A DNA stretch of 49,978 bases from Candidatus Dadabacteria bacterium. GTDB taxonomy: Bacteria; Desulfobacterota_D; UBA1144; Nemesobacterales; Nemesobacteraceae. A program made the translations under genes and the position numbers. Positions 570 through 20,207 of the stretch are shown piece after piece (positions within the stretch are counted from its first letter, which is position 1; each line of letters opens with the position of its first letter). The notes below the pieces were generated by a model that did no database searches, was not told where the DNA came from, and worked only from the letters and a program-made list of their open reading frames with translations. The stretch lies in NCBI GenBank assembly GCA_009837205.1, contig VXTZ01000027.1, forward strand, positions 6,301-56,278, in the 5' to 3' direction.

Positions 570-1631
570 TTGAAAATTGAAAAAGCGCCTAATAGCGCTT
601 GGCCTGATGCACTGTGGGTCGGAATCGTGAAGATTAAGCTTTCAGACATCACGGTAATCGATTCAGGCGGAAGGTTTCGGGTGGTCCCGACAGTAACCAC
701 GCCTAGTTACGATATCGGAAACACAGTTCAGGCCGGGGATGTGCAGGGAGTCACTAGGGTACTTTCCGAGACACCGATCAAGTACATTGATTTGCCGGAG
801 GTGGATGATTCGGTTATTGATCAGTTCCGCTCAGAACATCCCAATGAGTCCGACCTCGGATTTGATGATTTCGGAGGTCTCCCAAGGGTTGTGGCTAGGG
901 CGCGGGAATTGATTGAGGTACCACTAGCGAACAGCAAATCTCTGTCGGCGATTGGAGCACGTCCGATTAAGGGTGTACTTTTCACCGGGGAGCCAGGCAC
1001 CGGGAAGACGATGTTGGCTCGTATAATTGCCTCGCAATCTGAGGCAACTTTCTACGAGATTTCTGGCCCAGTGATATTCAGCAAGTGGTATGGGCAGAGC
1101 GAGGAGTTGCTCAGGAAACTGTTTGAAAAGGCGGGGGAAGAGAAGAAAGCGATCATCTTCTTTGACGAGATCGATAGTATAGCCGCTCAGCGTGGAGACG
1201 AATCACATGAGGCATCAAAACGCGTTGTCGCTCAATTGCTTACGCTCATGGACGGGTTCGCTTCCGACACTAGCATTATTGTTATTGCTGCGACCAACCG
1301 ACCTCAGGACCTCGATGTCGCCCTTCGAAGGCCGGGTCGCTTTGACTGGGAAATCGAGTTTCCCTACCCGGACGAGCGTGACAGAAAAGATATCCTGATA
1401 AAGACAGCGCGCCGACTCTGCACTAGAGAGCCGCTTCCCCACGCTATGATCGCAGAGAGGTCTGCCGGGTGGTCGGCAGCAGAACTAGCACAGATTTGGA
1501 GTGAGGCTGCATTACTGGCCGTTCAAGACCAGCGAAAGCAAATTTATGAAGAGGACTATATTGGCGGGTTCGAGCGTGTCTCCCGCAACCGGAATCGGGC
1601 GGGAGGTGTCAGGCGGACTGGAGGCAATTGA
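570..1631 (+). CDS. Cdc48/VAT-like AAA ATPase, N-terminus probably incomplete as called
   Basis: This is a single AAA+ module of the Cdc48/VAT/FtsH-like classic AAA group, whose members use ATP to unfold or remodel proteins. Visible motifs are Walker A GEPGTGKT (about residue 140), Walker B IIFFDEID (about residue 200), sensor-1 AATNRPQ and the arginine-finger stretch RRPGRFD. The called start is a TTG at 570. The frame stays open back to 327 (after a TGA at 324-326) and encodes a beta-rich, protein-like stretch, but it contains no ATG, GTG or TTG. The true start is therefore either a rare codon or lost to a frameshift. The stop overlaps the next start (TGATG), so the two genes are almost certainly co-translated. 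The substrate is unknown. Confidence 0.8.
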   Translation: MKIEKAPNSAWPDALWVGIVKIKLSDITVIDSGGRFRVVPTVTTPSYDIGNTVQAGDVQGVTRVLSETPIKYIDLPEVDDSVIDQFRSEHPNESDLGFDDFGGLPRVVARARELIEVPLANSKSLSAIGARPIKGVLFTGEPGTGKTMLARIIASQSEATFYEISGPVIFSKWYGQSEELLRKLFEKAGEEKKAIIFFDEIDSIAAQRGDESHEASKRVVAQLLTLMDGFASDTSIIVIAATNRPQDLDVALRRPGRFDWEIEFPYPDERDRKDILIKTARRLCTREPLPHAMIAERSAGWSAAELAQIWSEAALLAVQDQRKQIYEEDYIGGFERVSRNRNRAGGVRRTGGN

Positions 1632-3022
1632 TGAGTGTCGCATCTCGCATACGAGATTGGCTGCGATGCGCAAAGCCCCGACGGATCACGCAGAACTCCA
1701 CCGGGCTGTTGCGGGAGTTCGTCTATTTGGACGAAGTGTCTGTCTATAGCATCCTAGCCTCACGAAAGGATGGAATCGCCGCCGAATTCACTGAGAGCCA
1801 GACGGCCTCTCTGAACACAGATGTCGAGGGTTCACTTAGCGTTGGGTTTAATGCGACGAAGGCAAAGCTGGGCTCTAAGCGGCAGAGTAGCCATGTTCAG
1901 AGTTCTCAGGTGCTGCGCAAGGCGATCATTCAGACGAGCTTCAAAGAACTGTACGATATTGAACAGTATTCGCTCGCGTTGAGTCCGCCTGACGCCGATT
2001 GTGTGCCCACAGTTCATACAGTCGACGATCTTGAGAAGAGACTCGATCTATCTGTCAAAGATGCTTGGCTTATCGATCCGAGCACCCTATGTCGAGGCGA
2101 ACTCTTAGAAGTGGAAGTAGATCTGGAAGCTGATCCGATTTTTCGCATGGCTTCAATCATTACAACTCTTCAAGAACTCATGGAGGACAACGAGCATCTG
2201 TTCGGGAATGAGATTTCCGCCCAACTGCCTCAGATGCGTTCGATGGCGCAGTTACTGGAGAGTTTGCTCGTTGGCCTCGTTCCTATCCGAGGACGCCTTG
2301 TAGATTACAAGTCAGCCAAAATTGGTGATCGTGATATCTTAGTGCACCGATTGCTTCTTGAACAGATACCACCCGCCACCCAGCCCAAAACCTACCCTGC
2401 GTTTGTGGTCGGTGTTGCTCAGCATGATTTGTTTTGGAAGGATATTAGACGCGTACTATTCTCTCAGGCTCAGTACACTGTTTTCTGTCGGCTCGCAATA
2501 AGCGGTTTGGTGGAGAAGTGGCATCCAGTCAAGGTAGCGGGTGTTCTTGCGGGGATTGTCCCACAATTTGATGAATTGATTAGAGAATTCAGCGAAATAG
2601 CAAGCCGAGCCATGACTGCTACAGCCGACGCTTCAACAACATCGATAGGCGAAGACGAGCATTCAGCTACGGACATGATCAAAGCGTACGCCGAATTACT
2701 CTTAACCCACCAAGGTAGCACCCTCAACCCTGACATGATTGACGACATGATTCAAGGGATCTCGCCCGAACGTGACTGGCTGAGCAGTGTAGATGGACGA
2801 CGAGACGTGTTTTACAAAGTGATGCAACGGGTCGAAAAGGCATTAGGAGTAAAGATATCGGGCGAAGTTGCTTACGAGATCAGGGATGCTGCCACGCGCA
2901 ATGTCGGCCTCGCGGGTGTGCGGGTTCCTCAGGCGTCGAGCGGCAGAGAATACGATGCTGCGCCGGTTCCTAGTGGCCATGAAAGGTTCCTAGACACCGA
3001 AATCATAGCGATCTATTGGTAA
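1631..3022 (+). CDS. DUF6414-like protein coupled to AAA ATPase
   Basis: A 463-residue soluble protein with no signal peptide or clear membrane segment. Near residue 28 it has the stretch LREFVYLDEVSVYSILASR, followed by a region rich in Ser/Thr/Gln. I recognise this start as typical of the DUF6414 family, whose function is not known to me. The likely start is the ATG at 1631; an in-frame TTG lies one codon upstream. It overlaps the stop of the AAA ATPase by one base, which points to a two-protein machine in which the ATPase acts on or with this protein. It sits at the edge of a defence-rich region, so a stress or anti-phage role is possible but is inference only. Confidence 0.6.
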   Translation: MSVASRIRDWLRCAKPRRITQNSTGLLREFVYLDEVSVYSILASRKDGIAAEFTESQTASLNTDVEGSLSVGFNATKAKLGSKRQSSHVQSSQVLRKAIIQTSFKELYDIEQYSLALSPPDADCVPTVHTVDDLEKRLDLSVKDAWLIDPSTLCRGELLEVEVDLEADPIFRMASIITTLQELMEDNEHLFGNEISAQLPQMRSMAQLLESLLVGLVPIRGRLVDYKSAKIGDRDILVHRLLLEQIPPATQPKTYPAFVVGVAQHDLFWKDIRRVLFSQAQYTVFCRLAISGLVEKWHPVKVAGVLAGIVPQFDELIREFSEIASRAMTATADASTTSIGEDEHSATDMIKAYAELLLTHQGSTLNPDMIDDMIQGISPERDWLSSVDGRRDVFYKVMQRVEKALGVKISGEVAYEIRDAATRNVGLAGVRVPQASSGREYDAAPVPSGHERFLDTEIIAIYW

Positions 3023-3321
3023 TCGTGCGGTGAGATATGAGTATCCAGTGTAGGCAGCGGTGCAAGAATGCTCCGTAGAAACAGCATAGAGGGGTGAAGA
3101 GGTTGCGGAGCGCTAAGTTAACGGGGGCGCACATAGCGCATACTGTGAATTACTCTCTTATAGGAGAGGGATATCGGGATTGGCCATGTTGGTGCTCAGG
3201 TTCAATCTTGATGCTGTAATCTATTATACAAAAAACACCAAGGAGAGTGTCGTTTAGCTAGTTATGCTATTTGTCTAGTTATGTATATAAGTTCCAATCT
3301 TTAGGCTATAGAGGGTATCGA
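3023..3321. other. Convergent intergenic region, no gene seen
   Basis: About 300 bases between two converging genes. It holds a weak hairpin at 3153-3168 (CTCTC/GAGAG) without a clear T-run, and a direct repeat CTAGTTATG at 3258-3266 and 3275-3283. No convincing coding frame is visible. Confidence 0.4.
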
Positions 3322-5109
3322 TTACCCGCTCTTTCGCAAAGAAGCAAACAAAACCAGTTCTTCTATGAGTTCTCGCATTTCCGAGGGAATCTCATCAACG
3401 TGCATGGCGTCAATAATTGCGGCCGGAGTGACGCTGACACCATAACTACCCTGCAAGTATTCATTAACGGTACTAATCGCCTCTTTGCCTGGGATAAGCT
3501 TGTAACGTTCGACCGGATCACTCCACAACCCCTCGAATTTTTCCAAACTTTCGACATCTATCCGTGCATCATCAACTTTAGTCCCTCGAGAGCGAGCAAA
3601 TCTTCTATGGTGAGACAGAAATTGAGCTTCCACTGAACTTTTTTTATCCGCCGCAAACTCGTCTAACATCACCGCCGCCTCGGACACATATTCAATCTCC
3701 TTTCTCGTTCGCCGCACCTGATCCGAGATCCTTCTTCTTGCCGCCCGGTCTATAGCGGATGGCACCAGCACAAAATTCTCGATTTCCTTACGGTCAAGAA
3801 TCTCCACATACTCACAAAAATCCCGGCACTTGTTTTCTATTTCCTCGCACTCCTCATCCGACCGGTAATCCCGATCAAGTATAGCGGCGGCAAGGATACC
3901 GCTTTCCAAGGTAGTTTCCATACCCTCCTTTAGAGACCTAATGCGGTCCGGATTAAAACCACCAACCGGAACTACTGCGAAGCCGTGTCGATTGCTTACA
4001 CTTTCTTTTTTTAATTTTCGCGCGAACGCACCGAGAATATGGAAGTCCTTGCCCTCCACGAAAACGGCTTTCCGCGTTTTCGCCAATTGCGTAAGGGTCG
4101 GGTTGGTAGTCGAGCCTAATGCCGCAAACACTTCAACCAGTTGAGACGGGTTTTTCAATCGACGAGCGGAACTTAAGCGTTTGTCGATAAAAACGATATC
4201 TGTGGTTTCGGCCTCGGCGATTATTTCCGTCGAGTGAGTCGCGATCAGAATATCTGGACCTAGGTCGCGCAGGAGTAAGAGCAACTGACGTTGCAACTCC
4301 GAGTGCAAATAAATGTCGGGTTCATCAATCAAGAACAGCGATGAATCAGCTGATTGTATCAAATGCGTTAACATCTGACACCAGACCTGAAACCCGAAGC
4401 CCGACCAAAACAACTCCCGCATAACCCGATCTTCAAGGCAGAACATGTGTAGTCGCGTCGGTTTATGTGTCATATCAACATCGGGTCTCTGAATATCCAT
4501 CCCAGGCCATGTCTCGGCCAAAACCTTGCGAAATTTTTCAAACTGTTCGGGGTAATAATGCCAGATATTGCGAAAATTCCGTGCGGCCCTGTAGTTAAAC
4601 AACGCCCGGCGCGCTGCCTCCATCTGATACAAAGGTTCATGGTGTTCCACCGGTCCGAGAATCGGCACGAAACCAATCCTGCATTTAAATTCCCTCTTTA
4701 CGCTTGACGGAGTCCTTGGAGAACCTCTTGGAGTGTCCAGTGTGAGTACGCAGGAACCCGGCGCCAGAAAATGAAGCGTCAAAGTATTTCCGTTTGACAG
4801 AGTGAATTTTATTTCGGCGCCCTGCTCGTCCTCATAATTGAAGAAGATGTTTTCTTCCGCTATGGAAATGTCTGACAAATCAACCGTATAACCGAAACCC
4901 AGTTCACCACTATGCATCGGCTTTCGCGCGTTAGCGATACGCATAGCGGAAGCCAGAATACGAAATGCCGTGAGCACGGTCGATTTGCCACAGTTATTCG
5001 GACCGACCAGTATGTTAAAATGCTTCAGGTCGATTCTGAAAGTCCTAAAGGCTTTAAATCGCTTGAATTCGATACGGGTGAATCTATCGAAGGTGTCTGT
5101 TTCAACCAT
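3322..5109 (-). CDS. OLD-family ATP-dependent endonuclease (ABC ATPase + TOPRIM)
   Basis: A 595-residue protein with an ABC-type ATPase followed by a TOPRIM nuclease domain, the arrangement of OLD (overcoming lysogenisation defect) nucleases. The Walker A GPNNCGKST lies near residue 36. Walker B FLIDEPDIYLH and the H-loop ATHSTE lie in the middle. The TOPRIM glutamate is in VFVEGKDFHIL (about residue 350) and the acidic pair in LDRDYRSDEE (about residue 412). Family members cut or nick DNA and defend against phage. No UvrD-type helicase is adjacent, so this is a solitary (class 1-like) OLD rather than a GajA/GajB (Gabija) pair. It is transcribed toward the AAA/DUF6414 operon. Confidence 0.85.
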   Translation of the reverse strand: MVETDTFDRFTRIEFKRFKAFRTFRIDLKHFNILVGPNNCGKSTVLTAFRILASAMRIANARKPMHSGELGFGYTVDLSDISIAEENIFFNYEDEQGAEIKFTLSNGNTLTLHFLAPGSCVLTLDTPRGSPRTPSSVKREFKCRIGFVPILGPVEHHEPLYQMEAARRALFNYRAARNFRNIWHYYPEQFEKFRKVLAETWPGMDIQRPDVDMTHKPTRLHMFCLEDRVMRELFWSGFGFQVWCQMLTHLIQSADSSLFLIDEPDIYLHSELQRQLLLLLRDLGPDILIATHSTEIIAEAETTDIVFIDKRLSSARRLKNPSQLVEVFAALGSTTNPTLTQLAKTRKAVFVEGKDFHILGAFARKLKKESVSNRHGFAVVPVGGFNPDRIRSLKEGMETTLESGILAAAILDRDYRSDEECEEIENKCRDFCEYVEILDRKEIENFVLVPSAIDRAARRRISDQVRRTRKEIEYVSEAAVMLDEFAADKKSSVEAQFLSHHRRFARSRGTKVDDARIDVESLEKFEGLWSDPVERYKLIPGKEAISTVNEYLQGSYGVSVTPAAIIDAMHVDEIPSEMRELIEELVLFASLRKSG

Positions 5110-8280: not shown

Positions 8281-9189
8281 TTATACAGAGGATGATCCAA
8301 GTGTGCGATACGCTATTTTATCGTAAGCGTCTGGTTCATTTTCTTTGTTTGACTCGAAACCCGAAGTCGCTTCGTCCAGATGCAGGAGTGAGATTGTGAA
8401 ATTATACCGATCCGCAAAGAGAACCATTTCTTCACAAGGCTCTTTAAGCCATACTCCAGCATCAATCTCAAGGACTCCATTGTTCTTTTCGGCAACTTTT
8501 CTCTGAGCGGCAAGTGATTTATCAGGGATTTGAATGGGCGGCATGTCTACTGTCTTGAAAAACGCACCGGTTTTAAACGCAGGTCCGCTCGACCTCGACC
8601 ACAGAATGAACTCATCTCTTGAGACGACAAGAATAGACCGCCGCTCAGTATAATGTAACCAGCGCAATATTGAAGCTGTCAGGGAAGTTTGATATCGATC
8701 GGAACATATTCCAATCATTCTCAGATCGGGTTTTATGCGCGGTCCAATTTGTTTTCTGAAGTCATCAAGGGGCATAAGCAAATTTGCCGCGAAACTGTTG
8801 GCTTGGCTTTCGATTTGGTTATAGTTGGAGTCCCATATCGCCATGTCTTCTTCCGTACACTGGATACCCCCCGGATACTTCAACCTGTGTAGAAGGTAAT
8901 GACCGAATTCATGCGCTATAGTAAAATTTATTCTGCCTGATGAACTTATGGCGTTGTTATAGATAATCCCCCAGCCCTTTTTACCATTCTGCGCGGGATG
9001 CAACGCACCTTCGAAGCCACGTAGGGAACCGTCTAGTACATCTGTGATTGGATCGCCGGGAAACTTATGCTGGGAAAAGTCAAGCGCAAGTTGTTTTACT
9101 TTCACCGGAAACCGGTCGGCTTTATAAGTAGCATTGAGTATTAGGGTAAGATCGGTAGCCCAGCGCTCAGGAGACAGTTCTTTGGTCAT
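8281..9189 (-). CDS. capP: ImmA/IrrE-type metallopeptidase, CapP-like
   Basis: A 302-residue protein with the zinc-protease motif AHEFGHYLLHR near residue 92 and the second-half acidic/Asn stretch expected of the ImmA/IrrE (DUF955) family. Family members cleave an XRE-type repressor when activated by DNA damage or ssDNA. The gene abuts the XRE gene with no intervening base (XRE stop 9190-9192, this ATG 9187-9189). The pair is divergent from the CBASS operon, the arrangement described for CapH-CapP control of CBASS. The C-terminal half could be the sensor domain, which is inference. The gene symbol is given by analogy; sequence identity to known CapP was not tested. Confidence 0.8.
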   Translation of the reverse strand: MTKELSPERWATDLTLILNATYKADRFPVKVKQLALDFSQHKFPGDPITDVLDGSLRGFEGALHPAQNGKKGWGIIYNNAISSSGRINFTIAHEFGHYLLHRLKYPGGIQCTEEDMAIWDSNYNQIESQANSFAANLLMPLDDFRKQIGPRIKPDLRMIGICSDRYQTSLTASILRWLHYTERRSILVVSRDEFILWSRSSGPAFKTGAFFKTVDMPPIQIPDKSLAAQRKVAEKNNGVLEIDAGVWLKEPCEEMVLFADRYNFTISLLHLDEATSGFESNKENEPDAYDKIAYRTLGSSSV

Positions 9190-9510
9190 TTATTTTTTCC
9201 CAATCAATTTTGCTATATCTCGAATTTTCTTACGGGTTTCAGGGGGCATTTTTTTATATTGTCGATAAAATTTGGCGTCAACCGCCTCCTCTTCGCTGAC
9301 GGCTGCCTCATTGTCCAGCAGATATTCTATTTCCACCTCAAGTTCCTTGGCGATCCTGGCTATTTTCGTAGCGGATGGTCGTGGAAGGTTTCTGTTCTCA
9401 AGCTCCCAGATATAGCTTTTGCTGGAATCTGTTCGTTTAGCAAGTTCCTCAAGGGTTAAGCCCTTCTGTTTTCTGATCTTTTGAATCTTAGCGCCTAGAG
9501 TACTTGACAT
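9190..9510 (-). CDS. capH: XRE-family repressor, CapH-like
   Basis: A 106-residue protein with a classic N-terminal helix-turn-helix (about residues 7-62) containing IRKQKGLTLEELAKRTDSS and SYIWELENRNLPRPS. A basic C-terminal tail may be the cleavage or dimerisation segment. It is the first gene of a two-gene unit with the ImmA-type protease and points away from the CBASS operon. It most likely represses its own promoter and that of CBASS until the protease cuts it. Operator-like palindromes lie in the shared intergenic region at 9590-9605 and 9635-9649. Confidence 0.85.
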   Translation of the reverse strand: MSSTLGAKIQKIRKQKGLTLEELAKRTDSSKSYIWELENRNLPRPSATKIARIAKELEVEIEYLLDNEAAVSEEEAVDAKFYRQYKKMPPETRKKIRDIAKLIGKK

Positions 9511-9589
9511 AGATTTTTCCAGTTTTTTGGCAGTTCACTATAGAAGTATTTTAATTACTTGACTTCAGAAATTCAATAGGGAATAATAA

Positions 9590-9605
9590 GTTCGGAGTAT
9601 CGAAC
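9590..9605. promoter_or_regulatory. Operator-like palindrome between XRE/ImmA and CBASS
   Basis: Perfect inverted repeat GTTCG-N6-CGAAC in the 140-base region between the divergent XRE gene and the patatin gene, just upstream of the CBASS -35. Its size and place suit an XRE dimer site. Confidence 0.5.
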
Positions 9606-9614
9606 ATTCATTGC

Positions 9615-9642
9615 TTGAAAAGAAATAGAAAATAGGTATAAT
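9615..9642 (+). promoter_or_regulatory. CBASS operon promoter
   Basis: The -35 is TTGAAA (9615-9620) and the -10 is a perfect TATAAT (9637-9642), with a 16-base spacer. Transcription would begin near 9649, only about two bases before the ATG at 9651, and no Shine-Dalgarno is seen there. The first gene would thus be read from a nearly leaderless mRNA. The -10 lies inside a second palindrome, GGTAT-N5-ATACC (9635-9649), a natural repressor site. Confidence 0.6.
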
Positions 9643-9650
9643 AGATACCC

Positions 9651-10562
9651 ATGGAACAGAAAACCAGATTCTTCAGAATATTGTCCCTTGACGGGGGTGG
9701 AATCAGAGGAATTTTCTCGGCTCGAGTTCTCGACCTAATGAACGATAAACTGGGCATCAACACCTATAATACCTTCGACCTTCTCGTAGGTACAAGTACG
9801 GGAAGTATCGTTGCTGCTGCCGTCGCGACGAGATATAACTTATCGAAACTCGTCCAAGACTACGAGTGTCATGCTCCCCGGATATTCAAAAAGAGGTTTC
9901 CCCTATGTGGTTTCTTGAGAAGCAGGTATGACAACGAAATTCTGGAGAACCTTCTGCATGAAAGCTTTGGAGAAATTACTCTAGGCGACATAAAAACGCC
10001 CTTGATAATTAACGCCACGAATGTCAGCACCGGGAAGGTGCATGTTTTCAAGTCTTCCTACCAAGAGGAGAGGCGTGGTGGCGACTATTCCCGTGATGGG
10101 GATGTGCCCCTTTACAAAGCTGTTTTAGCGTCATGTTCGGCACCGGTCTATTTCGACCCCGTGGAGATTTCGGGGGACCTTGTCTGCGATGGTGGGCTGT
10201 GGGCGAATAATCCGGCGCTTGTTGGATATGTTGACGCAGTAAGGAATTTCAACAAGGCTCCGGCGAACACGAGAATACTGTCTATAGGAACTGGAAACAC
10301 CAGACAGTTCTATCTCCCCTCGTATATGTGGGGGTTGGTAACGGGCTGGAAAAAAGAAAAAATCGTGAATTTTGCCATGCTTAGCCAGACTCAATACGCT
10401 GAGAATTGTCTGAGCCTGATCATGCCTGAGAATGTTCTAAGAATAAATCCGGAGATTGAGAACTGGGACCTTGATGACTACAAGGTTCTGCCAACATTAA
10501 AGAGTTTAGCCTCGCGAGAGGTAACTAATCGCGGGGAGTTGATTAAGGAATTTTTACAATAA
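9651..10562 (+). CDS. capV: Patatin-like phospholipase, CBASS effector (CapV-like)
   Basis: A 303-residue patatin-family phospholipase. The oxyanion motif GGGIRG is at about residues 15-20, the nucleophile elbow GTSTGS at about 46-51, and the catalytic aspartate in DGGLWANNP at about 179. In CBASS, CapV is switched on by a cyclic nucleotide from the adjacent CD-NTase and degrades membrane phospholipids, killing the infected cell. It is followed after 17 bases by the CD-NTase gene on the same strand, with an AGGAGG site between them. No signal peptide is seen, consistent with a cytosolic enzyme. The ATG lies immediately after the promoter. Confidence 0.92.
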   Translation: MEQKTRFFRILSLDGGGIRGIFSARVLDLMNDKLGINTYNTFDLLVGTSTGSIVAAAVATRYNLSKLVQDYECHAPRIFKKRFPLCGFLRSRYDNEILENLLHESFGEITLGDIKTPLIINATNVSTGKVHVFKSSYQEERRGGDYSRDGDVPLYKAVLASCSAPVYFDPVEISGDLVCDGGLWANNPALVGYVDAVRNFNKAPANTRILSIGTGNTRQFYLPSYMWGLVTGWKKEKIVNFAMLSQTQYAENCLSLIMPENVLRINPEIENWDLDDYKVLPTLKSLASREVTNRGELIKEFLQ

Positions 10563-10579
10563 TTATAGGAGGTATTGAA

Positions 10580-12169
10580 GTGAAGCACGTTAAGTATTTC
10601 GACGATTTTTTGAAGGAAAAAGTCAATCTAAACCAATCCAGACTGGACACTTTGGATCAGAAGGTTGAAGCTGTTACGAATCTGCTTAAATCCAAACTGG
10701 CTGGATACAGGAAATACAGTCCCCAAGGGTCCTACGCGCATAAAACCATCATAAAACCCGTTGCGGAGAACGATGAGTTTGATGCCGACATCCTGATTTT
10801 TATAAAGGATGAGGACTTTAAACCCGATGAGTTTCAGGAGGATTACGTAAGGAAGGTATATGACGTTTTTAAGGATAACGGAAACTACAAAGACATCGTT
10901 CACTTAAGCACCAGATGCGTTACCATCGATTATGCTGGGGATTTTCACCTCGACGTGGTTCCATGCGTCGAGTACCAAGGGAAATTCTATGTATGTAACA
11001 GAGTAGAGAAGAAGTACGAACAGACGGACGGTGATGGGTACAGAAGATGGTTTGCCGAGAAGAACAGAATTACCGGCAACAATCTCTTGAGAAAGGTAAC
11101 TCGCCTTCTTAAGTTCCTGCGTGACCACAAGAGCAACTATTCTATAAAATCGATTCTGCTGACGACCCTTCTTGGGAATCATGTTTATATTTCTGATGAG
11201 GATTCGTCAGCGTTCAGTGATCTGCCACAGGCGTTAAAAACTCTGTCCAACAGGATTAATGATTTCCTGAAAAATAATCCGCAAATGCCGATCATTGAAA
11301 ACCCGGTCTTACCCGGGGAAAACTTCAATAGAAATTGGGATGAGACCAAGTACAAGAATTTTCGCGAAAAGTTCAATTTATATAACACTAAAATTGACAA
11401 AGCCTTTGAAGAGAAAGACCACAACGAGAGTGTGAAGCTCTGGAGGGAGGTGTTTGGCGATGATTTCGGTAAATTACAGAAGAAGCCTAGCTCGGGGGCG
11501 GCTGCCGGCGGCCTTACGCCCATATATCCTACTAAACCATATGCTAGCCATGAAACCCCTATCTTACCCACGATTGAATACACTCCTGCAGAAATGGAGA
11601 AAATACGGTGCCGTTTTCCCGGTTTGTATTACGATAAAGGTGCCGTAAGGGGAGAGATCAGTTTCAGTGCAAGGTACGAACTCTCGGGCAGGAAGAAAAA
11701 GAAAAAATGGATAATAACGAACTGCTCTTCGGGGAAAAACTGCATTCAGGATGTCTACGAAATTAAAATACTCCTCAACGGACAACCAAAAGTCTTTGAG
11801 GTTGGAGGCAGGATTAAAAAGCTAGCGGAGAAACTCGGCCGCCCGATTGTTGACTTGCATTTATTTCCTGAGGATGAGAGTTGCTGCTTAGGGATCTTTT
11901 TGATAAATGAAAGGGAAACCTTAAGCAACTTTGTCATTAACAAAGTATACCCGTACTTTGTTTGGCAAGCTTATTTTGAAAAGTTCGGGAAAACTCCTCC
12001 TTGTGGAGAATATTCGCATGGAGAACAAGGTAAACGAGAGTTTCTGAAACATGTTTCCGATATAGGGCGAAATGATCCATGCCCTTGTGGAAGTGGGCTA
12101 AAATTTAAAATCTGTTGTCACTCAAAGACAAAAGGGAAAAAGAAACTCAGAGGCAATTCTCAATTTTGA
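10580..12169 (+). CDS. CBASS CD-NTase with C-terminal E2-like and SEC-C domains
   Basis: A 529-residue protein. The N-terminal half is a DNA polymerase-beta-type nucleotidyltransferase of the CD-NTase family. It has GSYAHKT (about residue 50), the metal-binding DEFDADILIF (about 65-74) and the third aspartate in FHLDVVPCVEY (about 124). It should make a cyclic oligonucleotide that activates the upstream phospholipase. After a Gly/Pro-rich linker, residues about 340-490 resemble the bacterial E2-like fold of CBASS Cap2 proteins. An early FPG motif is followed by YEIKILLNGQPKVFE, a HLFPEDESCCLG stretch in the place of the catalytic Cys, and PYFVWQAYFEKFGKTP before GEYSHG. The C-terminus is a SEC-C zinc motif (NDPCPCGSGLKFKICCH). 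The start is GTG, seven bases after a perfect AGGAGG. The CD-NTase and SEC-C calls are firm; the E2-like call is my inference. Confidence 0.88.
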   Translation: MKHVKYFDDFLKEKVNLNQSRLDTLDQKVEAVTNLLKSKLAGYRKYSPQGSYAHKTIIKPVAENDEFDADILIFIKDEDFKPDEFQEDYVRKVYDVFKDNGNYKDIVHLSTRCVTIDYAGDFHLDVVPCVEYQGKFYVCNRVEKKYEQTDGDGYRRWFAEKNRITGNNLLRKVTRLLKFLRDHKSNYSIKSILLTTLLGNHVYISDEDSSAFSDLPQALKTLSNRINDFLKNNPQMPIIENPVLPGENFNRNWDETKYKNFREKFNLYNTKIDKAFEEKDHNESVKLWREVFGDDFGKLQKKPSSGAAAGGLTPIYPTKPYASHETPILPTIEYTPAEMEKIRCRFPGLYYDKGAVRGEISFSARYELSGRKKKKKWIITNCSSGKNCIQDVYEIKILLNGQPKVFEVGGRIKKLAEKLGRPIVDLHLFPEDESCCLGIFLINERETLSNFVINKVYPYFVWQAYFEKFGKTPPCGEYSHGEQGKREFLKHVSDIGRNDPCPCGSGLKFKICCHSKTKGKKKLRGNSQF

Positions 12170-12315
12170 CTTATTAAGAGTCCTATTCCAAAATTTAGAT
12201 AGCTTCGATGGTCGGCATGGCGATTAAAAATGGGACAAGTGGCCTACAGCAATGAGGAGTTTGCTATGTAACGATTTTCGGGGTTCAGGTTTCCAGAATT
12301 AGAGCGGCAGCCCGT

Positions 12316-12358
12316 ATTCCGGCAATCTGACAGTCGGGTTGCCCGATTCAGACGGAAT
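12316..12358. repeat. Large REP-like hairpin between CBASS and DISARM-like operons
   Basis: Nested stems ATTCCG/CGGAAT, TCTGA/TCAGA and TCGGG/CCCGA with loop TTG, and a 4-base bulge on one side. There is no T-run on either strand, so it is not a standard intrinsic terminator. It lies at the truncated end of the DUF262-like remnant. The surrounding bases 12170-12347 contain nothing else I can support. Confidence 0.65.
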
Positions 12359-12500
12359 GCCCCGCCGATTTCCCGAAGAATAGCCAGTCCCGGCCAACCG
12401 CGGACGCAACAATCTCTTCAAGGTCGATTTCACCCAATTCAATGTCCGTGATTAGTTGGTTCAGATCATAGTCAACTTTAGTGAAAACAGTTTTACCCAT
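12348..12500 (-). pseudogene. Truncated N-terminus of a DUF262-like (GmrSD-type) protein
   Basis: A 50-codon frame with a good ribosome site (GGAG, about a dozen bases before the ATG at 12500). It begins MGKTVFTKVDYDLNQL and continues ITDIELGEIDL. This matches the characteristic opening of DUF262/GmrS-like nucleases as I know it, which normally continue into an IQRPFVW motif. Here the match ends after about 25 residues and the frame stops inside the hairpin at 12316-12358. I read it as the stump of a defence gene deleted after its first codons. It could instead be a short unrelated peptide. It lies 39 bases downstream of the DISARM-like operon on the same strand. Confidence 0.4.
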
Positions 12501-12539
12501 CTGTAAAAAGTCTCCTTCAATACTGTTTCTGCGTGGCGG

Positions 12540-14156
12540 TCACTCAAGCGTTTTGCCAAATGCTTTGCGGATATTTGCTTCAACTTCGGGATCCATACAC
12601 GCCTTGGATAGATAGTTTAAAAATTGGTTCAGTTCGACTTCAGAATTTATTTTGGGTTCGCCTCTCAAATCAATATTTACAGAATTTTCCTGAACTGTAA
12701 TTCCATATTCACCTTGGTCTAGGCTAATGCGTGTGTGGATACAGTCCCATTTTAACTCTCGAGCGAGAGTGAGGGCCGCTTTTTTCTCACTGGATTTCCA
12801 AGTTGACCCATCACCGAGCAACTCAAGCAAGGGGCGAATCCTGTCGGGAGATTTACCAAGGTCAATATCTGTTCCGGCAATCCTATGAGACATCTGAGCC
12901 ATACGATGGGAAACCGCCGACCGAAGTCTGGGATGAGACCGTAACCCCAGAGAAAGTTTTTGCCACCCGTCACGGACACCAAATAAGATCGCAGCCGCCA
13001 GCCAATCAGGTTCATCTAGCTTGTCATTGCTGATATTGAGAAGGTCCGCACATTTCTCACGCAGAAAGAACAACGTCATAGCGCGAGCTAGAGGTGCGTT
13101 ATGACGTTCAAACAATTCGCTGATCGTTGCATCAGCCAACCCCCTAAGGGATGTAAGGGTATCTTGAAGCTTCTTTATGCCTTTGCGTAGTTGTGGTCTA
13201 AGTTCCGCGGAAACCTCTTCAAGATTGTTAATCAATATGTCTTCAGCTCCAGTGCTTCCACCAGCTTGTCCGGTTTTTCTCCACTCCACCAGTCCTTCAA
13301 CAGCTTTCCAAAAAAACCATGTCTGAAAAACATCTCTGTCTTTCACGCGATTTTTCTCTACTTCCGGTGGCAACGATGCGACCCCAGTACGCATCCAAGT
13401 CTGGAGTCCTGAAAATATAGGATGGCCGCCTGCTTGTTCCTTCGTAGAATCGTCTGGGTCAAAAGCATACCGACATGTACGAACCGCTACGTCACCCATG
13501 TTGGCAACAAGAAGAGTCATTGCCATGATGCCCCCCGCAGCGAGTGGCTCTTGCAGCGGAACATAGCGCTCTGTAGGTCCTTCCTTTGGAGGCCAAGAGA
13601 CGGTAGATGACTTAGCAGTAAAAAGAGCTTTTCTTTTTGATCCGCACCTGACATCCTCAAGAGGCACATTGTCAAAGTCTTTGGCTCCCTCGTTGCATGC
13701 TTTTATATCCTCATCCGATTCAAAAACAACCGTTTTGATCCAAGACATAGGCAATGGTGCGGGAACCAGAATTGCATAATCGTTCCCATCTAACTGATCC
13801 GGGAAGCGAGCTTCCCGGATATTATCTTTACCGAGAAATATTAATTGTCCCGAGAGTTTGGACAGGTCAAAATCAATAACGGTCGGCTTTAAATACTTTG
13901 CTTCTCTCGTAGATAATTCAATCGTCTCCCACGGTACTTGGTCAATAAACAAAGGAATCCAACCCGGAAAGCTGCTAAGAGTATCTTCGTAGTATTTGTC
14001 AGCGAATCCGTGCGGAGGCATCACGAGTCCCGTTGAGAGCATATACATCATGTTCAGATGATTCGTGACGAAAAGCCACGAATCGGGAGTTTTAGTCCGG
14101 GTTGGCGCATCTCCGGCAGTTTTCCCGCTTTTCAAAAGTGGAAGTTCTTCTGTCAT
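12540..14156 (-). CDS. Unrecognised protein, last gene of DISARM-like operon
   Basis: A 538-residue soluble protein that I do not recognise. It has no signal peptide, transmembrane segment or obvious nucleotide-binding loop. The N-terminal third is rich in aromatic residues and prolines (for example MPPHGFADKYYE and FPGWIPLFIDQVPW), suggesting a folded sensor or adaptor rather than an enzyme with a simple motif. The C-terminal half is mostly helical. Its start overlaps the stop of the SF1 helicase by 4 bases, so its stoichiometry is probably linked to the helicase. In place it substitutes for drmC, the phospholipase-D gene of canonical DISARM, which it does not resemble. Confidence 0.7.
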   Translation of the reverse strand: MTEELPLLKSGKTAGDAPTRTKTPDSWLFVTNHLNMMYMLSTGLVMPPHGFADKYYEDTLSSFPGWIPLFIDQVPWETIELSTREAKYLKPTVIDFDLSKLSGQLIFLGKDNIREARFPDQLDGNDYAILVPAPLPMSWIKTVVFESDEDIKACNEGAKDFDNVPLEDVRCGSKRKALFTAKSSTVSWPPKEGPTERYVPLQEPLAAGGIMAMTLLVANMGDVAVRTCRYAFDPDDSTKEQAGGHPIFSGLQTWMRTGVASLPPEVEKNRVKDRDVFQTWFFWKAVEGLVEWRKTGQAGGSTGAEDILINNLEEVSAELRPQLRKGIKKLQDTLTSLRGLADATISELFERHNAPLARAMTLFFLREKCADLLNISNDKLDEPDWLAAAILFGVRDGWQKLSLGLRSHPRLRSAVSHRMAQMSHRIAGTDIDLGKSPDRIRPLLELLGDGSTWKSSEKKAALTLARELKWDCIHTRISLDQGEYGITVQENSVNIDLRGEPKINSEVELNQFLNYLSKACMDPEVEANIRKAFGKTLE

Positions 14157-15313
14157 TTTAATTCCTCTCGCCGTAACACATTATTGTCCTCGGGCAAAAT
14201 TTCTTCAATATCCTGACGCCCATTGCGCTTCATAAACATAAATACCTGATCTCTCGCTCGGGCAACCATTACGTAGAAAAGGCGCCGTGCGGCATCCGGG
14301 TTTTGCTTCTGGAAACGGTGCTCATCAATATCCGCAAGAATCGCCACATCAAACTCAAGCCCCTTGCACGATTGTGCGTTAATGACCAAGATACCGCCCT
14401 CGTTAAAAGCGACCCCGACTCTCTTCATATTAGCATAGTAAGTCCTTATTGCAGGTCGAGGATTGTCCAATGGAACTTGCAATGACTGAAGAGCATCCAG
14501 GTAGCGTTTTCGGATTGCGTTGTTTGGTGTGATAATTCCGATAAGCTGCCTCGGATCTCGGTCGCTCAGAAGCAGGATATGTCGCACGACCTTGTTGAGA
14601 TCGCTTCCATTGTAACGGTAAAGCATTGGAACGCGCCCTCTGGCAGGTTCGGGAAGTTCAGGGGGCGGGCTTGCCGGGTCCCCGGTGTAAAATTTCCGCG
14701 CCAGTTTTGCCACTTGGTAATGATTGCGGTAATTCTGCTTGAGTTCAATCACTTCATCCGCATCAATAGCCAAGCAATTCTCTATAGCCCTTCGGCTACT
14801 GTTCCTTTCTCCGATCTGCTGATTCTGGTCGGCAACGACAAAAAATCGATTAAAACCAAGATTCACAAGGGCGTTGTAAAATTCTTGGGGCATATCCTGC
14901 CCCTCGTCAATTATGAGAAATCTCTGCTTATTTTCTATTTCGGGTAATGCTTCGACAATCTTTTCGACACCCGGCCAGTCAATAGGTTTCCACTCACTAT
15001 CGCTGTTGAGCCGAGGAACAGACTTACCCGTGATTTTCGGAAATTCTTTAAGGAACCATCCGATATAAGTTTGACTAGCCAAACCTCCGAACAATTGTCC
15101 GCTAGCTGTGTCCAGAAGACGATTATAGACCAGAAACAAATAGTCTTCCTTTTCTCGGAAATAGCGTCTCGCGCGAATCAGAGCTAGCACCGATTTTCCA
15201 GTCCCAGGTCCACCAACGATCAAATGCTGACCCTCTTTGGGTAAGGCGCGAGCCTCCTCCTGTTCCTTGCTGAGGTCTTGAATACCCGGCAACTCAAATT
15301 TTCGTTTTGGCAC
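14153..15313 (-). CDS. Small UvrD/Rep-type SF1 helicase of DISARM-like operon
   Basis: A 386-residue superfamily 1A helicase, much shorter than UvrD or Rep (about 670-720). Seen in order are Walker A VGGPGTGKSVLA (about residue 33), the motif II variant LIIDEGQDMP, motif III VVADQNQQIG, motif IV KQNYRN, motif V INAQSCKGLEFDVAIL and motif VI RRLFYVMVARARD. All core motifs are present, so it is likely active, but the 1B/2B accessory domains are minimal. It starts 3 bases after drmB stops and overlaps the next gene by 4 bases. Canonical DISARM class 1 has an SNF2-type helicase and class 2 has drmE; an SF1A helicase in this slot is different from both. Confidence 0.85.
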   Translation of the reverse strand: MPKRKFELPGIQDLSKEQEEARALPKEGQHLIVGGPGTGKSVLALIRARRYFREKEDYLFLVYNRLLDTASGQLFGGLASQTYIGWFLKEFPKITGKSVPRLNSDSEWKPIDWPGVEKIVEALPEIENKQRFLIIDEGQDMPQEFYNALVNLGFNRFFVVADQNQQIGERNSSRRAIENCLAIDADEVIELKQNYRNHYQVAKLARKFYTGDPASPPPELPEPARGRVPMLYRYNGSDLNKVVRHILLLSDRDPRQLIGIITPNNAIRKRYLDALQSLQVPLDNPRPAIRTYYANMKRVGVAFNEGGILVINAQSCKGLEFDVAILADIDEHRFQKQNPDAARRLFYVMVARARDQVFMFMKRNGRQDIEEILPEDNNVLRREELK

Positions 15314-15316
15314 CAG

Positions 15317-17074
15317 TTAATCCTCTAATCCTCCGTCCACACAGTCAAGGAGTCCAGGGAATTGCGAGGCACAACCATTAATAAATGTTCTATCCAAAAG
15401 GATATTACCATAAGAGCAACTCGGTTCCGGCACAAGCGCACAAGCGTGACAAGCGGCACGATTCAGCAAATCGGGCCCTTGTCCGTCTTGCTCTGAGCAT
15501 ACCGGATCCAAAGAACACCAAGTCGCAGTCTCAAACACGCTGGTCAGCAAACGGAGAAACCGCTCGGGCTTCGCCATCTCCATCAAGCCACCCAGGGAAC
15601 CTTCCTCGTCCGCAACTGCGTCAAGTTGCCTGATCATGAGATGAGCAAGCGTGTGGCACAGTAGAAAACGTGGCGAAGGATTAATCTCAAATTCGAAAGA
15701 GAATTCCTTTTTTGCGAATCGCTTTGAAAAAGTATCCGCTCTCTCCCACAGAACCTTGCTGACACTTTCCCAGCGTTGCAGTATCGCTTCATCAAGGGTA
15801 ACAAAAATTCCTTCTCCGTAAAGTTCCAGTGCTGGAAGCCAGCGACTCTCGCCTACGATATCCGGTGGTACTAGTTCCCTACCCCCAGCGCGCCGGAACC
15901 CCTTGAGAACCATGATTTCCTTCAGCTTGTTGACGGCAACCAGATTTGAGACAATGTTCACCACACGGCGCGGAACACCTGACCCGAGATTCTGAGCAAG
16001 CGCTTTCCACTCCCGCGTCCAGTGCTTGGTAACAAAATCCTCGTCTTCTTTGAAATCATGGATTTCTCGAACCAGAACCTCGTATTCGTCCGCAAAAAGA
16101 TCACCCGTTTTAATCTCCTGGCCATACAGAGGATAACCTCCGTCAATATCCCTGATAGAATTTTCTATTTCGCCAGTCTCACAGTCGTAGTCATCCGCGA
16201 CCTGCCTCACCGCACTTTTTCGTGCTAATTCGTTCTTCGCATTCCGTATCTTCTCCTGACTGTTTAAGTCGTTATACAGGCGATCCGTAATGGTTCCTTG
16301 ACGGACTCGCGACTCCGGCGGAATAACAAGTGCCGCATTGTTCGATGCGGAGTGAATTCGAGCATCGTTAATCTGCAGAATCCAAGCGGGTTCCTCCAGA
16401 GCACTATCGGGATACTCGTTAATCCATGGTTGCTGCCAACAGTTGCGCGGGAAATAAAACCGCAACGGCAGCCGTTCGTCCGACCGGCATTGGCAACGAG
16501 TGCAGAGTATGGATTGGCCGATCCCGATTCCGGACCTTTGCATCTTTAAATAGGGCTCTTCCCAGTCCGGGTTACACTCATTTGTATCGCTGGCATTATC
16601 GTGAACCAGATCATGCCAAGGAACATCGGTCAGATAGCCTTTTCCGTGAACCAGAACCCATGGCACCTGCTCCAATTCACCACTGCAGATATCTCCAGTT
16701 TCTGTTTCGGTTCCCCCACAGGACCACTCATTGTCGCCCCGCTTCTCCTTCCAAGGTTCCCAATGCATCAATCCGCACTTCAGACAACGTGTCCACTTCG
16801 GAAACCTTGAGGCCGGAATCCATCCACTTACCGCCCCGTCATCCTCCTGTTCTGTCACATGCGGCGGTGTGCAAAGCCTCATGTTAGCAATGCCTAGCGC
16901 TTTGCATATGCGATCCACATGGCGGATTTGCTGATCCTCAAGATTGCGGCCCGGAGAAATCCATCTGCGTATATCGTTGACGACCATGACTCCCTTCTGA
17001 GTGCGTACAATGGCACCTACGGAGCAGTAGCGTAACAGGTCCGAGAGACGAACTTCAATGTATTCTTCAGTCAT
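15317..17074 (-). CDS. drmB: DrmB-like DUF1998 protein (DISARM)
   Basis: A 585-residue protein with Cys clusters typical of DUF1998/DrmB: CLKCG and CSGE near residues 95-130, CTRCQC near 190, and a C-terminal set with CSLDPVCSEQ, CHACALVPEPSC and a final Cys. The characteristic HTLAHLMIRQL helix precedes the last cluster. DrmB forms a complex with the helicase DrmA that recognises and clears phage DNA. Its ATG at 17074 overlaps by 8 bases the frame that continues drmA beyond its premature stop, which indicates the two were originally translationally coupled. Confidence 0.85.
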   Translation of the reverse strand: MTEEYIEVRLSDLLRYCSVGAIVRTQKGVMVVNDIRRWISPGRNLEDQQIRHVDRICKALGIANMRLCTPPHVTEQEDDGAVSGWIPASRFPKWTRCLKCGLMHWEPWKEKRGDNEWSCGGTETETGDICSGELEQVPWVLVHGKGYLTDVPWHDLVHDNASDTNECNPDWEEPYLKMQRSGIGIGQSILCTRCQCRSDERLPLRFYFPRNCWQQPWINEYPDSALEEPAWILQINDARIHSASNNAALVIPPESRVRQGTITDRLYNDLNSQEKIRNAKNELARKSAVRQVADDYDCETGEIENSIRDIDGGYPLYGQEIKTGDLFADEYEVLVREIHDFKEDEDFVTKHWTREWKALAQNLGSGVPRRVVNIVSNLVAVNKLKEIMVLKGFRRAGGRELVPPDIVGESRWLPALELYGEGIFVTLDEAILQRWESVSKVLWERADTFSKRFAKKEFSFEFEINPSPRFLLCHTLAHLMIRQLDAVADEEGSLGGLMEMAKPERFLRLLTSVFETATWCSLDPVCSEQDGQGPDLLNRAACHACALVPEPSCSYGNILLDRTFINGCASQFPGLLDCVDGGLED

Positions 17075-17420
17075 GAATTTTCAGCATCCCCTTATTTTCA
17101 ACATTCCTCATTGAGTGCATGGTCGGCCACAGTCCAGTACGTAAATCGCCGTGGGTGTACAATAAACGGTCGGAGTTCCATTCATCGTCACTTGTCTGAT
17201 AATTAAGCTGGCGATGGTTTTTTTTACAACGTTGCGCTTTGTCGTGCCATTGGTCCACAAGATGCTTTATATGGGCAACCGTATCACTATATTGTCCGGT
17301 TTCGGAAATGGCTCGCTCGCAACGCTCCTTGAATTTTTCAACTACTGCTCTTACTTTTGGGGAATCCCGATCAAACTTCCCCGCTGATGTGTTGTGGTGA
17401 AGATCTTCACAGACATATCA
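17067..17420 (-). pseudogene. drmA: C-terminal 116 codons of drmA cut off by an in-frame TGA
   Basis: The drmA frame continues without interruption past the TGA at 17418-17420 for another 116 codons, ending at a TGA at 17067-17069 that overlaps the drmB start. The segment is protein-like and ends with WPTMHSMRNVENKG. This is the kind of SMR(N/E)-V motif I associate with the C-terminus of DrmA/DUF1998-linked helicases. CGA to TGA (Arg to stop) is the simplest cause. A GTG at 17256-17258 could restart translation. A sequencing error is also possible. Confidence 0.75.
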
Positions 17421-20207
17421 AAGCGTGACGACTAGAGCTGCGTGGAGCGCACGAGACCGAACTTGGTAGGTATAAGGCGTGACGCTGCTTGGTTCCACGA
17501 AGCGGTAGAAAGATTCGTGGTAAGGTCGGAAGCTCTCATAGTGCGATAGGCTGCGAGCTTGATGCCGGTAGTAGTTCACGAAAACCAATCCCGGAACTTC
17601 AGCGCGCCCAACTCGACTGGTTGCCTGTATATACTCGGCCGTGGTCAGTGGTTGTCCGTTGACAATCATCAAAGCGAGGCGCGTTACATCAAGGCCAACT
17701 GATATCATATTGGTAGCCAGAACGGCATCAAGACAATCAGCATCTCCTCTGGATTTCATTAACCGTTGGAACGTTCCGGCGTTTTCCTCGGCTGTCTGCA
17801 TTCCCGTAATCTGAGCAATACGCGTGTGCTGAAATCGCTCGGTCTGAAGTCCGTTGACAAGTAGTTGACCAAAATCCCGCACCTCTGTCACCAAGGAGTT
17901 GTGGCTGTCCCTGACGGCCTTCAGGCTGCCATGGTAAACGACCTGAGTCCACCAAGCTTCAAGAAAATTCTCCCGATTGACGGCTCCGTCAAACACAACA
18001 CATGGACCTGCAAGTAGTGCGGCGGCAAGTGGAACCAAGCAACGCTGCTGACCAATAAAAGGGGACAGATAACCAATATAGAGACGTCCCGGACGCTCCT
18101 CATCCACACGCGCGAAGTAAGAATCATCATAGGACAAACCAGGCGGTGGGAACACTTCAAGATTTCTTGCGTACAAGCGTCGCACTTGTTCCCGCGTCAT
18201 ACAGGTAGTCGCAGTTGACGCAACGTATTTGGGGCGAACGCCACGGCATAAGAGCAACGTGTCAAACCCCGCTTCATAGAGCCCCGCTACCGACCCCAGA
18301 GGACCAGTGATAAGATGCAATTCATCTTGTATGACCAATTCCGGTGGACGAAAATTCGTGCCAACACCGAAAAATGCACCGGCACGTTCCTCCCAAGTAA
18401 GACGCGCGAATTTGTCAACGGTTGCAATTAGCAGAGACGGTGGATGTTCATAAAGAAATTCGTCCAGAACATTGCACGGCAAAGAACCGTCATCTTTCCC
18501 AAATTCGCATTTATTATTGACGCAAAGAAATTGAAACTTTTTTTCCGTAGCATGGTAACCACGCATAGCGTCAAACTGTGTTCCACAACGCGGACAAGAT
18601 TCCAATATCAACTTGTGCCGCATCTCGGTCTTGCCAGCCTTGATCTCATCTACTATGTCCTTGGCTTGGCTGAATGTGTTGGGACCAACCTTTCTCCCCA
18701 CCCATATACCTATATCAAACGGGTTTTTGCCCAGTTTGTCAGGATTTTTTCTACGAATCAACTCCAGGGCACATATCATTCGAGCCGCACGTTCAAACTG
18801 TTGTTTGGTCAGGAGGCGCAAGGTGTAGCGCATAAAAGCCACGGTTCCCCCACCTGAACCCCCATCATATTTCAGGCGTCGCCAGACGATTAGAAAAGCA
18901 ACCAGTCCCAAATACGCCTCGGTTTTACCACCACCGGTAGGAAACCATATTAGATCAAGTATGTCTCGATAATCATCGTCTTCGTGGATTACAGACACCA
19001 TAACCGTAAGCAAGAAAGCTAGCTGGAAAGGGCGCCAGCGATAGCACCTCAGTTCAATCTTCTTGCCTTTAATAAGGTCGGCTTGGCGCATCTGGTCAAG
19101 CATTGCCTGATTCGCTAACTGAAAGGACTCACTTGCGAGTCGATCAGTTCGAAGCGTTTCAACGCATCTTCGCATCCGTTCCAACGCCGTGACCATCCTG
19201 TCACAGATACGCTTTGCCGTAGCCTGCTCGCTAGCACTTAACGTCTTGGAATCAATGGCGATTTGTTGCTGTTCGTCAATCCAGTCGGAATACCCATCTA
19301 CAAAACGCTCGAGCTCTTTATACATTGGCTTATCGGCGAGAGATGCGATTTCAAGAACCGAATCTTCACCCCCTGTATTGACCGTTACTGCGGGAACCTC
19401 GGTAATCGGCATGAATTCGGACCAGATCCGTGGCTTATCCCGATTGCCGAGGCACACCTCCCAATCCACAGCCGCTCCATGCCCTATAGCGTAAATCCGC
19501 TTTTTCTTATACTGAAGTTCAAGTTCCTGCTCTTCTTCGTTAAGCAAACTTGCATCAACGCGTGGATATTCAATCAGTTCACCGCTTTCTATAGAACACT
19601 CAATATGTGCTTCAAACAATGATTTTTCTATTAGGTCAAGGGACTTATTTCTTGAGTTCAGTTCACATCTATTGCAAAGCGAAACCGTCACAATTAGGCC
19701 ATCTGCATATGATCTTGCATTAATATTGATTTCCGCGCGCCCATCCCAAATTATCTCGCTCGCTCTTGGGAGCGGTAATGATTTAATGAGAGTATGCTCT
19801 TGGAGGCAGGTTCGCTCATAACCCAGTTCTGGTTTCTCCAGATTTCTGTTTTTATAAACAGAAGCACTAGCAGTTATGGAAAGACGCTTATCTTCGCCTC
19901 GAAGATAAAAGGAAAAGCCAACAGAAGATGGTGGTGCAAAGCGTCGCCTACGTGCTGTCCAGGCAAGCTTCCGACTTTCCTCCTCATCGTCTTCAATTTT
20001 TAATTCCTCTTGATCTTCAAGTAAGGCTGGAACTGTTTCTTCCTGCTCCAGGTCAATGCTAGATAGGTCGGGCACCACGGGATGCAAAACTCCTGTCGGA
20101 TATCTATCTAACGGAGACATTGACAGGTTTTTTCCTTCAGTAGCCGGGCCTATAAGTTGTTGACGCACCCAAGAAACGAGTCTTTGTCTAGCTTCTACAT
20201 AAGGCAT
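17418..20207 (-). CDS. drmA: DrmA-like DISARM helicase, prematurely terminated
   Basis: A 929-residue SF2 helicase of the DISARM type. The N-terminus has RLVSWVRQQLIGPATEG, typical of DrmA. Walker A IWFPTGGGKTEAYLGL is near residue 424, the DEXH box VIQDELHLI near 627, and motif VI QATSRVGRA near 862. A Cys set (CPRCGTQ and CVNNKCEFG) sits between the two RecA lobes. In DISARM, DrmA loads on DNA ends or unmodified DNA and acts with DrmB. It is first in a four-gene minus-strand operon. The protein stops at a TGA about 116 codons before its probable natural end. All helicase motifs are upstream of the stop, so partial activity is conceivable. Confidence 0.87.
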   Translation of the reverse strand: MPYVEARQRLVSWVRQQLIGPATEGKNLSMSPLDRYPTGVLHPVVPDLSSIDLEQEETVPALLEDQEELKIEDDEEESRKLAWTARRRRFAPPSSVGFSFYLRGEDKRLSITASASVYKNRNLEKPELGYERTCLQEHTLIKSLPLPRASEIIWDGRAEININARSYADGLIVTVSLCNRCELNSRNKSLDLIEKSLFEAHIECSIESGELIEYPRVDASLLNEEEQELELQYKKKRIYAIGHGAAVDWEVCLGNRDKPRIWSEFMPITEVPAVTVNTGGEDSVLEIASLADKPMYKELERFVDGYSDWIDEQQQIAIDSKTLSASEQATAKRICDRMVTALERMRRCVETLRTDRLASESFQLANQAMLDQMRQADLIKGKKIELRCYRWRPFQLAFLLTVMVSVIHEDDDYRDILDLIWFPTGGGKTEAYLGLVAFLIVWRRLKYDGGSGGGTVAFMRYTLRLLTKQQFERAARMICALELIRRKNPDKLGKNPFDIGIWVGRKVGPNTFSQAKDIVDEIKAGKTEMRHKLILESCPRCGTQFDAMRGYHATEKKFQFLCVNNKCEFGKDDGSLPCNVLDEFLYEHPPSLLIATVDKFARLTWEERAGAFFGVGTNFRPPELVIQDELHLITGPLGSVAGLYEAGFDTLLLCRGVRPKYVASTATTCMTREQVRRLYARNLEVFPPPGLSYDDSYFARVDEERPGRLYIGYLSPFIGQQRCLVPLAAALLAGPCVVFDGAVNRENFLEAWWTQVVYHGSLKAVRDSHNSLVTEVRDFGQLLVNGLQTERFQHTRIAQITGMQTAEENAGTFQRLMKSRGDADCLDAVLATNMISVGLDVTRLALMIVNGQPLTTAEYIQATSRVGRAEVPGLVFVNYYRHQARSLSHYESFRPYHESFYRFVEPSSVTPYTYQVRSRALHAALVVTL

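Follow-up and report, generated by a model that had tools for sequence, protein, structure and literature searches.

A DISARM-type operon from a Candidatus Dadabacteria genome combines drmAB with a short SF1A helicase and a protein of predicted ADP-ribosyltransferase-like fold

In the original definition of DISARM, the phospholipase-D gene drmC is a core gene, although it is often missing. Class 1 and class 2 DISARM reportedly go back to Ofir 2018. Structural work on DISARM describes DrmAB as an auto-inhibited complex that is opened by, and then unwinds, DNA bearing a 5′ overhang; in the same study DrmC was dispensable and often missing from the operons, and the supply of the nuclease is called a mystery (PMC9142583). 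Within the YprA family, the splitting of helicase and DUF1998 protein into a pair is the mark of DISARM, whereas in ARMADA and TALON, which also use a YprA-type helicase, the two form one protein; TALON has a NERD nuclease and ARMADA II a GajB-like helicase (PMC12458937). Other known parts with a bearing on the present locus are the 'two-component ART' proteins (Pfam 2CompART; PF22546), DarTG and other pairs of ADP-ribosyltransferase (ART) and ADP-ribosylhydrolase (ARH), and helicases in which a NERD nuclease domain is fused to an SF1 helicase (PADLOC RTasNERD-Hel, Nhi and C3a187).

The window, by which we mean the whole stretch of 49,978 nucleotides that was analysed (contig VXTZ01000027.1), carries on its reverse strand four genes packed as one operon, as the preliminary description had reported: drmA (17418-20207), encoding a YprA-type SF2 helicase of 929 aa shortened by a frameshift; drmB (15317-17074), encoding the OB-CON-DUF1998 'canopy' subunit of 585 aa; a short SF1A (UvrD-type) helicase of 386 aa, here called H1 (14153-15313); and a protein of 538 aa, here called X (12540-14156). 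The close joins given there are borne out by a gap of 3 bp between drmB and H1 and an overlap of 4 bp between H1 and X. DrmA is of the DISARM type (NCBIfam DrmAS, E 5.8e-228; PADLOC DrmA, E 1.4e-182), although truncation of the protein brings its score below the NCBIfam cut-off, and DrmB, encoded by a separate gene adjoining drmA, lies above its own NCBIfam cut-off (DrmB_fam, E 1.6e-74; PADLOC DrmB, E 4.8e-41). H1 matches Pfam UvrD_C_2 (E 8.9e-9) and UvrD-helicase and has its motifs in place (Walker A GGPGTGKS, Walker B LIIDEGQD and KGLEFD), with residues that are invariant in the alignment. Membership in ARMADA or TALON was rejected on the ground that helicase and DUF1998 are separate genes here; a BrxHII/PglX pair and TPR-CSD/TBP are likewise absent from the unit.

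The drmA gene is not intact. A single frameshift near 17418 moves the last ~115 codons into another frame (17070-17417, reverse strand; 79 bits against the DrmA profile), the translation of which ends in GLWPTMHSMRNVENKGMLKIHD and the stop of which overlaps the start of drmB; full-length relatives of DrmA measure ~1040-1110 aa. With this displaced end counted, drmA and drmB overlap by 8 bp, much as in intact relatives.

The preliminary description had proposed that conserved co-occurrence of the 538-residue family with drmAB and the short helicase would mark a new subtype. Loci were collected by scanning bacterial genomes with an alignment of DrmA and taking the 80 best, to which others were added later, and the genes were called by profile searches on all six frames. 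X was found in 39 cases, fragments of loci included, and drmA accompanies it in 35; drmB was called as a separate gene in 34 of these 35, the exception (L022) having one frame of 1654 aa that spans the place of both drmA and drmB. H1 directly precedes X in all 38 collected X loci that reach that side. The arrangement drmA-drmB-H1-X is therefore not confined to this genome but recurs in 35 collected loci from many phyla, with Alphaproteobacteria, Actinomycetota, Planctomycetota and Deinococcota included. The best plasmid matches to DrmA show the order drmA, drmB, short helicase and hypothetical protein in Deinococcus gobiensis and on two Photobacterium plasmids, while single-sequence searches gave no match to X in viral contigs or plasmids and DrmA had none in viral contigs or phages. 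No small gene is conserved upstream of drmA in the relatives, the neighbours there being unrelated (PIN, HTH, RNase T).

Most of these loci hold a fifth gene that the preliminary description, in presenting four genes as the unit, had missed. It encodes a NERD nuclease domain fused to an SF1 helicase (~525 aa), and at 25 of the 35 drmA-X loci it is found either next after X or immediately ahead of drmA; proteins from the two positions are homologous (~27-41% identity across positions). They match Pfam NERD (E 6e-11 and 2.3e-12) and, as the best PADLOC family, RTasNERD-Hel (E 3.3e-41 and 2.0e-48). They resemble that family in their domain fusion and differ from it in being tied to drmAB, with no reverse transcriptase seen. 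Intact five-gene relatives are L018, L019, L020, L023 from Rhodanobacter thiooxydans LCS2, L025 and L109-L111. The gene is missing nearby at seven X loci with flanks, namely the window and L008, L009 from Photobacterium sp. TY1-4, L017, L022, L027 and L086, and at three more its place is cut by contig ends or rearranged. In the window this place is taken by 370 bp of non-coding or decayed sequence (12170-12539), short scraps with no Pfam match lying ahead of CBASS genes; an origin from DUF262 for the scrap at 12348-12500, suggested by eye, was dropped for want of a Pfam match. No NERD-helicase occurs elsewhere in the window genome (G000), which may either have lost the gene or never have had it. 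The reading of the four genes as one unit and a DISARM variant is supported, with the amendment that the usual full unit has five genes.

Since the loci above were anchored on DrmA, an X-anchored search independent of DrmA was run over 754 genomes of Alpha- and Gammaproteobacteria to avoid that bias. Apart from the two centre genomes it gave six, of which four have X together with drmAB, H1 and the NERD-helicase and two have H1 and X but no adjoining drmAB. One of these two (G395) has just a distant H1-X pair, and in the other (G830) the pair is split over two contigs; a weak second X match in G116 is likewise a pair alone. H1-X pairs without adjoining drmAB, as at L112, L114, L116 and L132, would be expected if the locus were two neighbouring systems, the remnant of an ordinary DISARM (drmAB) beside an independent H1-X pair of the 2CompART kind. 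This we regard as improbable, given the one order drmA-drmB-H1-X with overlaps of a few bases at 35 collected loci of many phyla, and given that the stand-alone relatives of X score only 58-84 bits against the X profile, where most DISARM-type X proteins score 210-670 bits. The phylogeny argues in the same direction: on the DrmA tree the X loci cluster, with 5 label changes where shuffled labels gave 26.

In that tree (maximum likelihood by a quick method; 83 rows; SH-aLRT support), the DrmA of the window falls within a clade of 22 rows (support 100) with X at every locus, and a wider clade of 63 rows (support 99) takes in nearly all loci with H1 or the NERD-helicase. The reference DrmA proteins of class 1 and class 2 DISARM lie outside both clades, the exact position of two class 2 rows being unsure because of long branches.

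The gene content agrees with this separation. The window shares with class 1 and class 2 the order and overlap of drmA and drmB, the DrmAS family and the split of helicase and DUF1998; in contrast, comparison with reference proteins found no relatives of drmC, drmD, drmE or the DISARM methylase in the window, as had been described, and no relative of the reference DrmC in the window or at any collected X locus. Flanks of up to 10 kb within the window's DrmA clade contain no relative of drmC, drmE or the DISARM methylase either, so that neither drmC nor the methylase occupies its canonical place in close relatives; a single drmD-like gene is found, in L017 only, on the opposite strand. Conversely, H1, X and NERD-helicases of the present type are absent from the reference class 1 and class 2 loci. 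DrmE was ruled out as the origin of either H1 or the NERD-helicase, no relationship having been found. The suggestion that the variant does not rely on a methylase has to be narrowed to the window's clade, because a C5-cytosine methylase lies near seven X loci outside it (L006, L035, L038, L041, L053, L067 and L092); most NERD-helicase loci without X also have one nearby.

One could still imagine ordinary decay, in which a class 1 or class 2 DISARM shed drmC, drmD or drmE and the methylase and then received two unrelated genes by insertion. The window copy is indeed decayed by its frameshift, and drmC is often lost from DISARM operons (PMC9142583), but the DrmA proteins of class 1 and class 2 lie outside the window's clade, their loci are devoid of the three additional genes, and intact five-gene relatives exist, all of which make this reading very improbable. 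We rate the set drmAB-H1-X, with or without the NERD-helicase, as a new DISARM variant. In the open literature, no paper was found that joins DISARM with an ADP-ribosyltransferase or a NERD-helicase, save the ARMADA preprint, which names NERD for TALON only (PMC12458937); an earlier listing in subscription papers or supplementary tables is possible. In the variant, three separately known parts, DrmAB, a two-component ART pair and the NERD-helicases, are joined in one five-gene system across many bacterial phyla.

Searched singly, X of the window matches no family in Pfam or PADLOC, and it had been described as a protein of unknown fold, a statement that the predicted structure overturns. A model by AlphaFold from 28 homologs (pLDDT 89.3, pTM 0.90) has DarT structures as its best Foldseek matches in the PDB (prob 1.00, E 1.3e-3, TM 0.53-0.57 by target), with ADP-ribosylglycohydrolases next and yeast Tpt1 also among the matches, none of which reaches E 0.001. 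The ART-like region spans approximately residues 25-180 (13617-14084) and an all-helical, ARH-like region approximately residues 200-430 (12867-13559). When residues 195-538 were modelled alone (pLDDT 90.4), ADP-ribosylhydrolases filled all the leading Foldseek rows, with prob up to 1.00 and a TM of only 0.3-0.43, so this predicted assignment is a remote one. Alignment of X with six ARH sequences by hhalign, one of them (L126) mis-framed in the alignment, gave no signal, which makes the ARH link a structural one. Sequence similarity to DarT is weak by hhalign (E 0.03), and the X profile gave only chance matches to designed helical repeats among PDB chains.

A second line of evidence comes from 2CompART. 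With E values of up to 1 allowed, PF22546 matches seven of the 28 X homologs; the strongest match, that of L025 (25.4 bits, E 1.8e-5), falls under the Pfam cut-off of 27 bits. A protein of 540 aa at L132 exceeds this cut-off, directly follows an H1-type helicase (160 bits against the H1 profile) and is collinear with X over 394 columns. From these matches, H1-X appears to be the two-component ART pair in a form resident in DISARM. The likeness of gene order extends to L112 and L116; unlike the DISARM-resident form, the pairs stand without drmAB or a NERD-helicase, and X proper scores under the Pfam cut-off. The stand-alone pairs, at L112 (8261-11805), L116 (7251-10681) and L132 (8226-10912), each consist of an H1-type helicase and an X-like protein (540-785 aa) and possibly form a two-gene system of their own.

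Conserved in the ART-like region are T31, N32, N35, K54, Y55, Y56, D58 and E85. In the weak hhalign alignment, T31 and N35, nearly invariant in the X family, align with T15 and N19 of DarT, residues in contact with the NAD+ adenosine ribose (PMC9967889), whereas the equivalent of DarT H13 is not conserved and the position aligned with E160 is hydrophobic or variable rather than acidic. Residues 195-538 contain no conserved acidic residue and no conserved ARH metal ligands, where the reference ARH sequences have DD and DSDST/DADTT motifs. Because neither the catalytic glutamate of DarT nor these ligands are conserved, X is more likely a regulator that binds NAD or ADP-ribose than an active transferase. 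Loss of the glutamate is no proof of inactivity, since DarT itself uses an unusual Arg-centred mechanism. X could instead be an active ADP-ribosyltransferase with a non-canonical site that marks phage DNA or host components, its ARH-like part controlling or reversing the mark, in the manner of a DarTG-like effector delivered by the DISARM helicases. The best fold match is a DNA-targeting ART, T31, N32, N35, K54, Y56, D58 and E85 resemble an active pocket, and departures from the canonical triad are on record for DarT and for Tpt1/KptA-type folds without the catalytic glutamate (PMC9967889), a family represented among the matches by yeast Tpt1; weighed against the E160 position and the lack of conserved metal ligands, an active X seems rather unlikely. 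The comparison with DarTG has further limits: X would hold DarT-like and ARH-like folds in one chain and is embedded in a helicase operon, and DarG is a macrodomain, not an ARH.

If X is a regulator, a scheme for the operon can be drawn. DrmAB would load on phage DNA with a free 5′ single-stranded end and translocate, as the literature shows for Serratia DISARM. H1 and X would act as a two-protein module, one that also exists alone, with H1 as an SF1 DNA motor and X, predicted to carry degenerate versions of both a DarT-like ADP-ribosyltransferase fold and an ADP-ribosylhydrolase-like fold, most likely binding NAD+, ADP-ribose or ADP-ribosylated nucleic acid so as to license or restrain the helicases. 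Such control would replace the methylation mark of classical DISARM, with the ART/ARH-like protein sitting where the methylase would be. The NERD-helicase, where present, would cut the unwound DNA; we propose that it takes the nuclease slot of drmC, in which case the lineage, presumably anti-phage in function, offers an operon-encoded answer to the nuclease question of DISARM. A bolder version, which we put forward tentatively and with less confidence, makes this a third DISARM lineage in which methylation-based discrimination of self from non-self has given way to an ADP-ribose module, a helicase with an ART-ARH fusion writing, reading or erasing ADP-ribose on nucleic acid at DNA engaged by DrmAB, with the NERD-helicase as the nuclease.

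The copy in the window is probably inactive, a partial and frameshifted system, because drmA is broken and the NERD nuclease gene is missing; both features could in part be artefacts of a draft assembly. A functional copy would require that the shift in drmA arose in sequencing or assembly and that forms with four genes borrow a nuclease from the host. The six other X loci with flanks but no NERD gene nearby are compatible with this, as is the dispensability of DrmC in the DISARM tested (PMC9142583), but the gene is kept directly after X in most close relatives, and we consider a working copy possible though unlikely. The explanation that we hold, with moderate confidence for the whole including mechanism and inactive copy, is that the locus belongs to a distinct DISARM lineage with the usual set drmA-drmB-H1-X plus a NERD nuclease-helicase. 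The window genome most likely gained the operon horizontally, since X is absent from all of ~100 relatives searched and DrmA occurs in only one distant genome; the window genome belongs to a small and little-sampled group (58 genomes available in its phylum).

A CBASS adjoins the operon (8281-12169), with divergent capH/capP regulators (8281-9510), a patatin phospholipase (9651-10562) and a DncV-like cyclase with an E2-like stretch and a SEC-C motif (10580-12169). At lower coordinates (570-5109) lie further defence-like genes, in which an IetA-type AAA ATPase (570-1631) precedes a DUF6414 protein (1628-3022) and an OLD/AriA-like ATPase is encoded at 3322-5109. Together with the CBASS and the DISARM genes they form a defence island around dnaK/rpoH and TCA-cycle genes.

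Elsewhere, the five-gene unit of Vibrio ezurae (L030, 3323-21812) stands between a YprA-type helicase of 2144 aa (DEAD, MZB) and a UvrD helicase with an N-terminal extension of ~250 aa, which gives the appearance of nesting within an ARMADA type II-like operon. Seven loci from Actinomycetota (L054, L073, L074, L081, L083, L085 and L093) have a gene for ~1550-1615 aa followed by the NERD-helicase, drmA and drmB but lack both H1 and X, which makes them another variant. At L037 (14811-18065), and also at L042, L051 and L057, the order NERD-helicase-drmA-drmB is followed by a protein of ~1050-1120 aa with a weak match to H1 (86-93 bits) and then by a gene for 581-1118 aa, an arrangement that is perhaps another swap of the H1-X module.
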